From Nocardia sp. (GTDB lineage: Bacteria; Actinomycetota; Actinomycetes; Mycobacteriales; Mycobacteriaceae), in assembly GCA_013361595.1 (NCBI GenBank), contig JABFXT010000715.1, positions 1 to 10,646 of the forward strand: DNA of 10,646 nt. Direction: 5' to 3'. A program made the position numbers and the translations under genes. The notes below the pieces were generated by a model. It was not told the DNA's origin. It saw nothing but the letters and a program-made list of their open reading frames with translations, and made no database searches. This document shows, in pieces, positions 7,059-10,623 of the stretch (within the stretch, counting starts at the first letter, position 1; each line of letters opens with the position of its first letter).

Positions 7059-7084
7059 TGCGGTAGGACTGATTGCGGGTCGCT

Positions 7085-8758
7085 ATGGCTGGATGCACAA
7101 GATTCTCGGGGATGCTGATCGCACTCACCGTCGCTGTGGCGACGGCGACAGCAGGCACAATCGCCGCTCCCGCGTACGCTCAACCGGCCGGCCCCGGGGG
7201 CCCGCCGACCGAGCTCGCGGTGACGTCGTGTCCGGCACTGTACGCGTTGGGGATTCAGGGCACAGGTGAATCGTCGCCCGACGCCGCGCCGACGACCGAT
7301 ACCGGCATGCTGTCCACCGTCTTCCGGCCGCTCATGGCCGCGGCACCGGACCAGGGGCTGGTGGAACGCGCCTATGTGCCCTACGAATCCAGTTTCGGCG
7401 GTGTCGACGGCGGTAGCGCCACACCGTATTCGGATTCGGTCAAGGGCGGTCTGATCCGGCTGCGCAGTATGGCGAGCTCGGTGGCGCAGCGCTGCCCCGA
7501 AACCCGCTTCGCGATCGTCGGATATTCGCAGGGCGCCCATGTGGCCTCGGTGTTCGCGCAGGAGGTCGGTCAGGGGCAGGGCACGCTGCCCGCCGAAAAG
7601 GTCGCCGCGGTAGCGCTGATCGGTGACCCCACCCGCAACGCGGGCGCCCCGCTGTTCCCCGGCTCACCCGGCAAGGCCAATCCCGATCCCGCGCCCGGTA
7701 CCGAGGGTACGGAGATCGGGCATATCGCTGCGCTGAACCAGGCCCCCGCCGCCGGTGGTGGTATCGCGCCGGATCGCGATACCGCAGAGAACTTCGGTGA
7801 GCTCACCGGCCGGGTGGCCAGCTTCTGCGCCGCGGGCGATCTCGCCTGTGACGCGCCCGAAGGCGCCCCGATCCTCAAGGCGGTCGCCGGTGTCGTCGGA
7901 CAGATGAAGCTCAGCGGTGGCGATCCGATCGCCTCCCTCACCTCGATCGCGCAGGCGCTCGCCTTCACATCGATCAAAACCGCCACGAAGGTGATCAACG
8001 AGGATGTGCAGGGCACCTCACTGGCGACCCTGAACATCTCACCGAAGAAATCGATCTCCGAACGGCTGGCCGACGCCGCCGATCCGCGCACGCCGCTGGA
8101 TATTCCGGGTGCGATGCGTGCGCTGCTCAAAGTGGGCATGATCGGACTGAACGCGGTGGTCACGGTGGTCCGGACGGTGCTGAACCCCACGGCGATCGCC
8201 GAACTCGCCACCGCCGGTCTGGCGAATCCACCGGCGGCACTGTTGATGCTGGGAGCCAAACTACTCGGGGCGATTCCGCAGCTCGTTCCGCCGACCACCG
8301 GGATCCGCCTGGTGAGCCAGGCTTTCACCGCGGTGATCGACAATATCCAAGACAATCACGCTCTGCTCGACACCACGACGTGGGTGCGTTACTGGGACAC
8401 CATCCAACGGCATCAGGCGTACGGAAACGCGGCCATTTCGGCGACCGGCGAGGCACCCACCCGGTTCATCGCGGACTGGTTCGCCGCCGCCGCGCGGGAT
8501 CTCGCCGCGGTGCACGGTAGCGGCAACGAACCCGTCGCCGAAAAGGCTGCGCCCCCGGTCGGAAGCATGCCGAACGGTGGAACGCCCGCCCCGAACGGAT
8601 TCTCAGGTTCCGACCCCGGCGCGTCGCCCGCACCCGCTCCCTCCGGTACGGGACAATTCCCATTTGGGACAGGAGTGAACAATGGTGCCCCGGAAGGTCC
8701 GGCGGCCGCCGCTCCCGCACCCGATACAACCGAAACCGACTCGTTCTCCGTGAACTGA
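7085..8758 (+). CDS. Secreted cutinase-family serine hydrolase with large insertion and Pro-rich tail
   Basis: A 557-residue exported alpha/beta hydrolase of the cutinase superfamily. A signal peptide covers residues 1-32 (hydrophobic core LIALTVAVA, cleavage after AYA). The mature N-terminus has the cutinase-like Cys49 and a GTGES turn. The nucleophile elbow is GYSQG (S148). Asp252 sits in CAAGDLAC with flanking C248 and C255, as in Fusarium cutinase, where this pair forms a disulfide. The catalytic His normally follows the Asp by about 13 residues. Here the best candidate is H443 in RHQAYGN, 191 residues later, so a largely helical, hydrophobic insertion fills the catalytic half. Residues from about 480 are Pro/Gly/Ala-rich and may cross the cell wall. 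Natural substrates of actinobacterial members are lipids and esters; this one is unknown. ATG 7085 is chosen; TTG 7073, with AGGA four bases upstream, would add four residues. It leads a probable operon with the next genes. Confidence 0.85.
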   Translation: MAGCTRFSGMLIALTVAVATATAGTIAAPAYAQPAGPGGPPTELAVTSCPALYALGIQGTGESSPDAAPTTDTGMLSTVFRPLMAAAPDQGLVERAYVPYESSFGGVDGGSATPYSDSVKGGLIRLRSMASSVAQRCPETRFAIVGYSQGAHVASVFAQEVGQGQGTLPAEKVAAVALIGDPTRNAGAPLFPGSPGKANPDPAPGTEGTEIGHIAALNQAPAAGGGIAPDRDTAENFGELTGRVASFCAAGDLACDAPEGAPILKAVAGVVGQMKLSGGDPIASLTSIAQALAFTSIKTATKVINEDVQGTSLATLNISPKKSISERLADAADPRTPLDIPGAMRALLKVGMIGLNAVVTVVRTVLNPTAIAELATAGLANPPAALLMLGAKLLGAIPQLVPPTTGIRLVSQAFTAVIDNIQDNHALLDTTTWVRYWDTIQRHQAYGNAAISATGEAPTRFIADWFAAAARDLAAVHGSGNEPVAEKAAPPVGSMPNGGTPAPNGFSGSDPGASPAPAPSGTGQFPFGTGVNNGAPEGPAAAAPAPDTTETDSFSVN

Positions 8759-8774: not shown

Positions 8775-8822
8775 ATGATGCCAGATCACGTGCCCGGCGC
8801 CACGGGAATGGGGGAATGTTGA
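8775..8822 (+). CDS. Possible 15-codon leader ORF overlapping the next gene start
   Basis: ATG ATG at 8775-8780 is preceded by GAGAGGG (8764-8770), a better ribosome binding site than the one before the annotated gene. The frame encodes MMPDHVPGATGMGEC and stops at TGA 8820-8822, seven bases after the A of the downstream ATG (8816). Such an arrangement would couple translation of the membrane protein gene to the leader. It could equally be chance; there is no homology to support the peptide. Confidence 0.25.
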   Translation: MMPDHVPGATGMGEC

Positions 8823-9742
8823 AGTCCTACAAAAAACTCGATCGATGGTACGGTCCGCTGGAGCCCGAGGGGGCGCGCGACACGGACATATCGGCACCCG
8901 CGCCCGAATCCGGTGGCGAGGACGTGCCGGGGGCCGACGACGGCCCTGCCAGGTACCCCGACTACATCGCGGAGGCCGGAAGCGCTTCCGCGCGACCCCA
9001 CCCCGCACCCGCCGAGCTGTCCGGCCGGCGCACCGAATTCACCGGTGGCTGGTCGGACTGGGTCGATGCGCCCGACGAGGATCGGGACGCGGATCTGGTG
9101 CGATTTCCCTGGACCGATTCCGATCCCGAGCAGACCGAGCCCGCGCGGATCGGCCGGACTCCGGCCCGGCTCCGCGACGCCGGACCCGACGATCGGATCG
9201 TCCGGCGTCGCCGGACCGCCGGTGTCCTGCTCGCCGCCGTGGTGCTGCTCGGTATCGCCACGGCCGTGGTCCTTTACCTCCTGGCGCCGGGTACGCCCGG
9301 GGCCGGGCCGGTACCCGACGAAGGCGCGGGTCTGCGATTCACCGCGGGCAGCGCCGGTGCCGACCCCGCCGCCGCGGCCTGTCCGGCGGAACGGACCGCC
9401 GAGGTGGTGCGTGGCGCGGGCCCGGGCGGTACGACCTCCGGACCCGAGGCCATCCTGCGGTTCCAATACGCCTACTACGTCCAGCGTTCCGGTGCCGAAG
9501 CCCGCGCGGCGGTCGCGCCCGACGCGCCGGTATCGGCGGCCGAGGTCATCCAGGCGGGTATCGACAGCGTCGCGCCCGGCACCGCGCACTGTGTACACAT
9601 CACGACCGTCGCCGACGGCCGGTACACGGTCGAGGTCACCGAGTTCCGGTCCGGAGGCGAACCCGCGACCTACAGCAGGCAAACGGTCACCACCGCGGTG
9701 GTCGACGGCCGCACCCTCATCACGGGTATCTCGGCCGGATAG
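8816..9742 (+). CDS. Single-pass membrane protein with extracytoplasmic domain, unknown function
   Basis: A 308-residue protein I do not recognise by name. The first ~130 residues are hydrophilic, acidic and Pro-rich, hence probably cytoplasmic and disordered. They contain DRWYGPLEPEG near the start and a tryptophan motif WSDWVDAP...LVRFPW (W79, W82, W99). RRRR precedes one membrane helix (about 136-156, GVLLAAVVLLGIATAVVLYLL), giving an N-in orientation. The exterior domain (about 185-308) has helical PEAILRFQYAYYV, then beta-rich repeats ending TTAVVDGRTLITGIS, a layout reminiscent of NTF2-like or VirB8-like accessory domains (inference only). It holds the only two cysteines, C189 and C259, possibly a disulfide. 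ATG 8816 is the first start after the cutinase stop in this frame, though its own ribosome binding site is poor. It lies 57 bp after the cutinase gene and 14 bp before the ParA-like gene. A role as membrane anchor for the downstream protein is plausible. Confidence 0.8.
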   Translation: MLKSYKKLDRWYGPLEPEGARDTDISAPAPESGGEDVPGADDGPARYPDYIAEAGSASARPHPAPAELSGRRTEFTGGWSDWVDAPDEDRDADLVRFPWTDSDPEQTEPARIGRTPARLRDAGPDDRIVRRRRTAGVLLAAVVLLGIATAVVLYLLAPGTPGAGPVPDEGAGLRFTAGSAGADPAAAACPAERTAEVVRGAGPGGTTSGPEAILRFQYAYYVQRSGAEARAAVAPDAPVSAAEVIQAGIDSVAPGTAHCVHITTVADGRYTVEVTEFRSGGEPATYSRQTVTTAVVDGRTLITGISAG

Positions 9743-9749
9743 AGGAGAG
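9742..9749 (+). promoter_or_regulatory. Ribosome binding site fixing the start of the ParA-like gene
   Basis: GAGGAGAG ends seven bases before ATG 9757. The same frame is open far upstream, to 8845, but that part only mirrors the membrane protein gene in a shifted frame; this site and the change to normal composition mark the true start. Confidence 0.7.
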
Positions 9750-9756
9750 TGCAGCG

Positions 9757-10623
9757 ATGGGAGAGGATTGGAGCCGCTGGCTCGACACCGCGCCGGATTC
9801 GGCAGCGGACGAGACCGACGGAGACCGGAAGGCGCGAGTGGTGCGGTTGCCGGGCGGCGCCCGGACCCGTGCCGCCGGTGCGCCCCGGCCGATCCTGGTG
9901 GTGGGCGGTTGCGGGGGAGCCGGAACCACTACCACCGCGCTGGGACTGGCGGGCGAACTCGGCCTGTCCGGCGCCGCCACGGTCGCGGTGGACGCCACCC
10001 CGGCCGGGGGTGATCTCGCGCTGCGCGGTGCCGACGAGCATCTGCACCCCATCAGCATGCAGCAGTGGTTGTACGGCCGTGGCGACGACGAACCGGCGCC
10101 TTTGAAGGAATGTATGTCCCGGGCGACCTCCGGTATCGGTCTGCTGTGGCGCGATGCCGCGCCGCTACGCCGCCGCGCCAGCTATCTCACCGTCGCCCGG
10201 GCGGTGGACCAGGCCGGATACACCGGCGTCTACGACGGTGGGAACCCGATCGCGAGCCGGCAGTTGCGGCCGTTGCTCGATGACGCGGACGTCGCACTGG
10301 TCCTGACCATCCCGGCCCGGGTGGACGCGGCCAATCGGTTGCGGGTGACCCTCGAATGGCTGGACGACGAGTACGGGGACGCGTCCGAGCCGATGGGCGG
10401 CGGGATCGTGGGCGACACCACCATCGTGGTCTCTCATCAACAGCGCGGTGCCGATTCGCGCGTGGCCGACCATTTGCGGGAACACCTGTCGGGCTGGGTC
10501 CGCGATATCGTCGAAGTGCCCTACGACCCGCATCTGGCGCGCGGCGAACTGGTACGCCATATCGAACTCGCCGACGAGACGCGGCAGACCTATGAGCACC
10601 TGCTCGCCGGGATGGCATCATGA
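9757..10623 (+). CDS. ParA/MinD-fold protein with degenerate P-loop
   Basis: A 288-residue soluble protein of the SIMIBI/ParA-MinD fold. After a 45-residue acidic leader (MGEDWSRWLD...VVRLPG) comes ILVVGGCGGAGTTTTALGLA. Aligned to the ParA signature GKGGVGKTT, C52 replaces the signature lysine and T57 the Walker A lysine. The next strand gives AVDATPAGGDLAL (D79, A'-like motif), GVYDGG (D160) stands at the Walker B position, and ALVLTIPARVDAANRL and TTIVVSHQQ follow the usual fold order. Loss of both lysines suggests weak or no ATP hydrolysis, as seen in other degenerate MinD-like proteins of actinobacteria (for example Ssd/TadZ-like ones), so a scaffold or localisation role is likely. It shares the tryptophan motif with the preceding membrane protein. 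It is followed with a 4-base ATGA overlap by another gene, so tight translational coupling is expected. It lacks a ParB-type partner and is unlikely to be the chromosome-partition ParA. Confidence 0.8.
   Translation: MGEDWSRWLDTAPDSAADETDGDRKARVVRLPGGARTRAAGAPRPILVVGGCGGAGTTTTALGLAGELGLSGAATVAVDATPAGGDLALRGADEHLHPISMQQWLYGRGDDEPAPLKECMSRATSGIGLLWRDAAPLRRRASYLTVARAVDQAGYTGVYDGGNPIASRQLRPLLDDADVALVLTIPARVDAANRLRVTLEWLDDEYGDASEPMGGGIVGDTTIVVSHQQRGADSRVADHLREHLSGWVRDIVEVPYDPHLARGELVRHIELADETRQTYEHLLAGMAS

Follow-up and report, generated by a model that had tools for sequence, protein, structure and literature searches.

A box of the form W-x(2,3)-W-hydrophobic is conserved in the disordered cytosolic tails of two neighboring proteins, a DUF8176 membrane protein and a ParA-like protein, encoded by the last two genes of the window, by which we mean the whole 10,646-nucleotide stretch of Nocardia DNA that was analyzed. 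Within the genus, there are also modules in which a second DUF8176 protein carries the ParA-type version of the box and the ParA-like protein has none. We regard the conserved tail boxes as a real feature of these proteins and, judging by sequence comparison, as good candidates for docking tags. For a DUF8176 protein and lysine-less ParA-like neighbor that are uncharacterized in Nocardia and its relatives, the boxes provide a candidate contact site with few residues to mutate. We know of no model for bringing a ParA-like protein and membrane subunits to a Gram-positive secretion-like machine, and a receptor shared by the boxes, if there is one, would explain how the ParA-like protein reaches such a machine along with several membrane subunits. 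The features are as follows, in window coordinates unless a locus is named.

8816..9742, forward strand: single-pass DUF8176 membrane protein, 308 residues (PF26527, precomputed on the identical protein P0121)
8840..8869, forward strand: tail box 1, DRWYGPLEPE, residues 9-18 (W11, L15, E16 and P17 invariant in 45 diverse homologues)
9044..9064, forward strand: tail box 2, GGWSDWV, residues 77-83 (GWSDW[VI] in 120/120; G77-W82 invariant in the 45)
9095..9112, forward strand: tail box 3, LVRFPW, residues 94-99 ([FLI]P[WR] after box 2 in 118/120)
9185..9283, forward strand: transmembrane helix, residues 124-156 (AlphaFold2 helix, mid-helix block pLDDT 91 and 95)
9371..9739, forward strand: NTF2-like outer domain (DUF8176)
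9757..10623, forward strand: ParA/MinD-fold protein with a lysine-less P-loop, 288 residues
9766..9795, forward strand: ParA tail box A, DWSRWLDTAP, residues 4-13 (W[ST]xW in 98/102; WL[DE] in 96 of those 98)
9832..9852, forward strand: ParA tail box B, ARVVRLP, residues 26-32 (VVxLR-like in 87/98; V-x-R-x-P in 3/98)
9904..9936, forward strand: degenerate P-loop GGCGGAGTTTT, residues 50-60 (HMMER-aligned to KGGVGKTTTA of 8ray)
10560-10620: contig-end overlap, at least 61 bases identical to L032:1-61
L032:246-932: second ParA-like protein, the next gene of the operon, with a GGAGASS-type P-loop (DUF6668 below threshold, 25 bits against 27)

A tryptophan box conserved in both tails

AlphaFold2 gave low confidence to both tails, in keeping with the disordered-looking N-terminal regions in which a sequence-only reading of the window had placed its motifs. 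In the model of the membrane protein, helix 124-156 and the C-terminal domain are confident and the tail is of low confidence; the ParA tail, some 40 residues that precede the ATPase fold, is likewise of low confidence and is taken to be disordered. The sequence-only reading quoted WSDWVDAP (residues 79-86) and LVRFP (94-98) from the membrane protein and WSRWLDTAP (5-13) and VVRLP (28-32) from the ParA-like protein, within positions 9050-9852, and all four stretches and the span are exact. It took them for one shared pattern, W-S-x-W-hydrophobic-D followed by V-R-x-P, and for short docking motifs.

Homologues divide that pattern in two. W-S-x-W-hydrophobic occurs in 120/120 membrane proteins and 98/102 ParA-like proteins, but the aspartate is not common to both: W[ST]xWL[DE] is found in 96/98 ParA-like boxes, but D84 of the membrane protein in only 7/28 complete tails of the genus. 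[VL]RxP follows box 2 in 57/120 membrane proteins (the best 120 of 177), and V-x-R-x-P is as rare in the ParA-like proteins as listed above. Instead, the membrane protein conserves FPW and the ParA-like protein VVxLR. These are two different elements, each kept within one of the two proteins, so that what the proteins have in common is W-S-x-W-hydrophobic, and V-R-x-P was rejected as a common element. VVRLP is peculiar to near relatives of the window, and the likeness of the second halves was a local coincidence. The expected conservation in orthologues holds for the tryptophans of both proteins and fails for VRxP; what stands of the proposal is that both have short conserved tryptophan boxes in disordered cytosolic tails, a property of docking motifs.

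Conservation is concentrated in the boxes. Of the membrane tails read in the genus, 28 are complete (L022 and L030, without a standard start, were left out); they keep G77-V83 and P98 in 28/28 and R96 in 20/28. When 45 diverse membrane proteins are compared, 14 columns within residues 1-130 are invariant (M1, L2, Y5, W11, L15, E16, P17, G77, G78, W79, S80, D81, W82 and P98), and all lie within M1-Y5 or boxes 1 to 3. Box 1 showed no useful similarity by hhalign to box 2 or to ParA box A. In 30 ParA tails of the genus, D4, W5, S6, R7, W8, L9, P13, K25, A26, V28, V29 and R30 are kept in all 30 loci and P32 in 4. The 102 ParA-like proteins counted above are the closest ones (P0001-P0102, from the best 120 of 127 homologues), with the motif sought within 30 residues; P0087, P0089, P0094 and P0098 were the misses, and W[ST]xW was found in 0/18 of the remainder (P0103-P0120) within the first 60 residues. 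Two genomes of the genus have lost the ParA tail (MGEDWSS..RQRPILVV) and retain WSDW in the membrane protein. Loci L259 and L260 (genomes G020 and G229) have a nearly tail-less ParA-like protein and a membrane protein with ELKFPWE upstream of WSDWV and TVRTLP at the usual place of FPW.

Background frequencies come from one closed genome of the genus, sampled as 40 stretches of 20 kb that cover 0.8 of its 6.2 Mb and in which a crude codon-composition picker called 632 genes with 228,940 residues. The full pattern of the sequence-only reading occurred in 0 of these 632 proteins, as that reading required of a pattern not common in unrelated proteins. W[ST]xW was found five times anywhere and in 0/632 within the first 60 residues, where the looser W-x-x-W-[LVMI] occurred in 5/632; [FY]xGxW[SAV]xW[VMLI] occurred once, in a DUF8176 gene. 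At the level of DNA, W-S-x-W-[VL] was unenriched across five genomes (48 matches, 30 of them inspected, against 78 for a reversed control). The signal is therefore conservation.

The likeness of the two boxes to each other is clear to the eye and weak by profile. Aligned by hhalign with cut tails, the membrane and ParA boxes gave 33% probability and a P value of 4.6e-4. When a membrane-box profile was run against 825 mixed sequences, four DUF8176 proteins came first, followed by two ParA tails (E 0.2 and 0.41), and most other ParA tails fell outside the top 30. A 24-column profile of 16 membrane boxes returned only DUF8176 genes at E<0.01 from five closed genomes, namely the operon copy in 5/5 and one orphan in 4/5, and returned no ParA-like protein at E<=10.

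Operon context and other carriers of the box

Only 14 bases separate the membrane gene from the ParA-like gene. The window's contig ends at 10646, and at least 61 bases close to that end are identical to the beginning of contig C118 from the same assembly, which places the break within an operon. The closest named homologues are from Nocardia (among the best 120 of 127 listed). In the closed relative G050, the pair is followed by a second ParA-like gene, a lipoprotein gene, a TcpC-like gene, a polytopic membrane gene, an SCO6880-family gene (569 bits, cut-off 60), a VirB4/TraG-type ATPase, an M23-SLT-NlpC wall hydrolase, a lipoprotein, a VirD4/TraG coupling protein and then a hisS-like gene, with the labels TcpC-like, polytopic, lipoprotein and hisS assigned by reading the sequences rather than by profile. 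The DUF8176 and ParA-like pair heads a type IV secretion-like operon, whose VirB4-, VirD4- and SCO6880-type genes are present in G050, the window's contig stopping short of them. A receptor encoded just downstream, as the sequence-only reading proposed, is a putative operon-linked partner with some support. The C-terminal end of the L032 TcpC-like protein, LEGWTRW, was set aside as a further box because that end is expected to be extracellular. On the other side of the pair, a cutinase-like gene (7073-8758) adjoins it in the window and, by reading, also in L056 and L059 from other genera.

The box is not confined to the operon. DUF8176 is multicopy in the genus (between 3 and 10 matches in each of 59 genomes, E<=1e-8), and orphan copies were collected as the best match in each of 30 genomes, lower paralogues being read in part. 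Omitting L097, L111 and L119, whose tails are short or cut, 23 of the 27 readable orphan tails carry [WY][SAV]xW, mostly as [YF]xGxWxxW[VMI]; the four without it are L105, L116, L117 and L118. Because each is the best match of its genome, the orphans may be largely one orthologous line. One orphan DUF8176 gene in a closed genome is interrupted where the tail passes into the domain, by an in-frame TAG (L167:16614-16871 and G043:C1:3766695-3767372).

Second modules in the genus (L122-L129 and L141) show the box on a different carrier. There the ParA paralogue, which is flanked by two DUF8176 proteins and has a tail that reads GSPTDxVPLRGG, lacks a tail tryptophan in 9/9 cases. The adjoining DUF8176 protein carries W[AS]xWL (WAQWLDE, WSEWLEA, WASWLSE) in 7/7 readable cases, and another DUF8176 protein about 3 kb further on carries WSDWI or WADWI in 8/8 readable cases. 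The ParA-type box thus occurs on a membrane protein too, an argument that the motif is of one kind and that its carrier can change. SCO6880 is absent from the contigs or neighborhoods of these modules and was found elsewhere in the same genomes (10/10); it was present in all genomes of the genus that were searched (21/21 and 10/10, the two sets having two genomes in common). Further ParA paralogues in the genus (L130-L132; identity 47-54%) belong to pairs in which neither tail has a double-tryptophan box.

Beyond the genus, the double box goes with SCO6880 in part. Of 251 genomes that represent the family, 43 have the ParA-like gene (E<=1e-20), 143 have DUF8176 (E<=1e-6) and 87 have SCO6880 (E<=1e-30). 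The 22 ParA-bearing genomes outside the genus comprise 13 with SCO6880 and 9 without, and in 8 of those 9 DUF8176 still lies beside ParA. Three SCO6880-free places, read as lists of open reading frames over 15-16 kb without a profile scan, contained no recognizable secretion gene. The membrane tails of SCO6880-free pairs have single-tryptophan boxes, such as SHWFPPFAP, PTWLSADDEP and PEWMRESGLPP. A W-[FY] box of the box-1 kind was seen by eye in 20 of 28 loci of other genera; as a side observation, box 1 (W-[FY]-x-x-hydrophobic-x-P near the membrane protein's N terminus) also occurs in SCO6880-free pairs there.

W-x(2,3)-W was present in either tail of 10/12 SCO6880-linked pairs outside the genus and of 0/16 unlinked pairs (Fisher P 5e-6, uncorrected for relatedness of the genomes). 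Tails in this 28-pair comparison were the last 260 residues. Some box counts outside the genus fall in sequence ahead of true starts, and the boxes were checked by eye. Unlinked means that SCO6880 (E<=1e-30) is neither on the same contig nor in the genome; G089, G190 and G077 are in many contigs, and a break may hide a link. The 28 pairs do not include L212, L224 and L225, where the contig is broken or the stretch contains no DUF8176. Five genomes with both kinds of pair (G099, G102, G105, G256 and G248) have the double box only in the linked one. Membrane double boxes outside the genus include DWMAWLDLPG (L056), GWLGWLGDE (L214) and DWTGWLASE (L053), and the L226 ParA-like protein, EWMQWLGQEPEPETDLPPAAVVPLRG, has both ParA boxes. 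ParA-like proteins of the g23 loci (L057, L058, L215, L216, L219, L222 and L223) have no tryptophan after the likely start. A cut of the ParA match at 120 bits (10/10 linked against 0/16 unlinked, outside the genus) was discarded, the threshold having been chosen post hoc.

Linkage to SCO6880 is not sufficient for the double box. Six more linked pairs from outside the genus brought the count to 11/18, and as a prediction, the linkage rule fits one of the six (L265; not L267 or L274-L277). In more distant genera with SCO6880 on the same contig, 0/17 DUF8176 tails (L242-L258) had W-x(2,3)-W; L252 and L258 among them are also the two linked misses of the 10/12 count. Twenty further linked stretches gave a convincing double box only in L265 and, inside the genus, in L284. 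The match in L268 and L280 was confined to an apparently non-coding reading ahead of the gene, and no DUF8176 was seen in L278 and L282.

Candidate receptors and competing explanations

One possibility, which we favor tentatively, is that the boxes are one kind of docking peptide whose predicted receptor is a component that accompanies the SCO6880-type secretion system. The VirB4-like, SCO6880 or VirD4-like protein would be the candidate receptors. DUF8176 could then be a VirB8-like subunit, orphan copies could be read by the same receptor in trans, and the ParA-like protein could be recruited to those docking sites as well, placing or switching the machine. A secretion-system receptor is favored because of the SCO6880 association outside the genus and because secretion genes occur in all searched genomes of the genus. 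The counts that point toward docking are those of box 2 (120/120), box A (98/102) and the orphans (23/27), together with the second modules, the 14 invariant columns, the box profile that returned only DUF8176 genes at E<0.01, and the operon content. R388 offers a precedent, with VirB8 tails that bind VirB4 (PMC9259494). Against docking, a two-hybrid test in ICESt3 detected no contact between the VirB8-like OrfG and the VirB4-like protein (PMC11753425). In the genus, the box is also kept where SCO6880 is not linked, in orphans and second modules, 0/17 linked tails of distant genera have it, the likeness between the boxes is thin, and the ParA tail can be lost while WSDW stays.

Another explanation, somewhat unlikely in our judgment but a live rival, is that box 2 and ParA box A are unrelated, alike by convergence and bound by different partners. 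The different second halves, the weak profile similarity, the failure of the membrane-box profile to find ParA and the independent loss of the ParA tail would all follow. It is harder to reconcile with the same near-invariant core in adjacent genes, which is rare at N termini (0/632), or with the ParA-type W[AS]xWL[DEN] on DUF8176 proteins. A clade outside the genus has W-A-x-[DE]-W in both proteins (L227, L239 and L240, WASEW with WAGDW), though L241 is mixed (WASEW with WMEW).

Movement of the box between carriers, as seen in the second modules, also suggests an unlikely but more specific arrangement, in which every module in the genus retains two boxes, one of the WSDW[VI] type and one of the WxxWL[DE] type, and DUF8176 subunits and ParA compete for sites. 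ParA would carry the WxxWL[DE]-type box in the module linked to secretion genes, and an additional DUF8176 protein would carry it in the other module. Interchangeable DUF8176 subunits and a lysine-less ParA-like protein would then use common docking sites on one secretion-like machine.

A receptor within the pair itself, namely the ParA-fold protein, is unlikely but likewise a live rival. Here, the DUF8176 tail would recruit ParA to the membrane, and ParA's own box would be an internal mimic for the same groove. The pair does persist without SCO6880 (the 8 of 9 genomes and the three places read over 15-16 kb described above), all SCO6880-free pairs have tryptophan boxes in the membrane tail, and in second modules the ParA-type box is on the DUF8176 gene adjoining ParA. 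However, the SCO6880-free boxes have single tryptophans instead of W-x(2,3)-W and therefore may be something else, and nothing indicates the putative groove. The linkage counts moved the odds from a ParA groove to a secretion receptor.

MinD carries a membrane-targeting sequence, and the tryptophans, the short amphipathic pattern and the MinD-like fold might suggest that the boxes are interfacial membrane anchors. We consider this very improbable: the acidic flanks are unfavorable for an anionic membrane, and box 2 is already on a membrane-anchored protein, about 40 residues from the helix. Chance resemblance without function, to which a short motif unenriched at the DNA level might point, has next to nothing in its favor overall, being refuted for each box separately by conservation, with near-invariant boxes inside otherwise variable tails.

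Comparison with known systems

Docking at a secretion-like machine invites comparison with VirB8/TcpC-like subunits such as R388 VirB8, TcpC and ICESt3 OrfG. Like them, the DUF8176 protein is a single-pass (bitopic) protein with a cytosolic N-terminal tail and an NTF2-like outer domain, and it is encoded with VirB4-, VirD4- and wall-hydrolase genes. The NTF2-like conjugation protein 3ub1, which we take to be TcpC, was a weak Foldseek match (E 0.021) and was absent among 50 VIA-align rows. In contrast to VirB8 and TcpC, the DUF8176 protein has a long, acidic, disordered tail that bears tryptophan boxes and an FPW box, and DUF8176 has orphan copies and stand-alone pairs away from secretion genes; the likeness rests on architecture. 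The DUF8176 domain (PF26527) itself is assigned by precomputed annotation (PF26527.1 on P0121 and on homologues, the best 120 of 177), a direct Pfam scan having given no family; the tail boxes lie outside the domain, and a literature search on the word DUF8176 found no mention.

The ParA-like protein has the ParA/MinD fold and a P-loop, GGCGGAGTTTT, in which both lysines are replaced; HMMER places C52 and T57 against the lysines of 8ray. No lysine occurs at residues 50-59 in any of 67 aligned homologues, which also sets the protein apart from canonical ParA/MinD ATPases, whose deviant Walker A motif has both lysines. ATPase activity cannot be assumed, because both P-loop lysines are absent in all 67. 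TadZ, CpaE and Ssd resemble it in the ParA fold, in the absence of both P-loop lysines and in a weak match to TIGR03815, an NCBIfam equivalog (E 2.2e-6). Eubacterium rectale TadZ is reported to lack both P-loop lysines as well (PMC10482377). The ParA-like protein differs in its disordered tail of about 40 residues, and its TIGR03815 score of 27 bits lies below the cut-off of 154.45. TadZ has a receiver-like N-terminal domain.

The MinD-like regulators FlhG/FleN and BcsQ share the fold of the ParA-like protein. With FlhG, a short peptide acts on or from such an ATPase.
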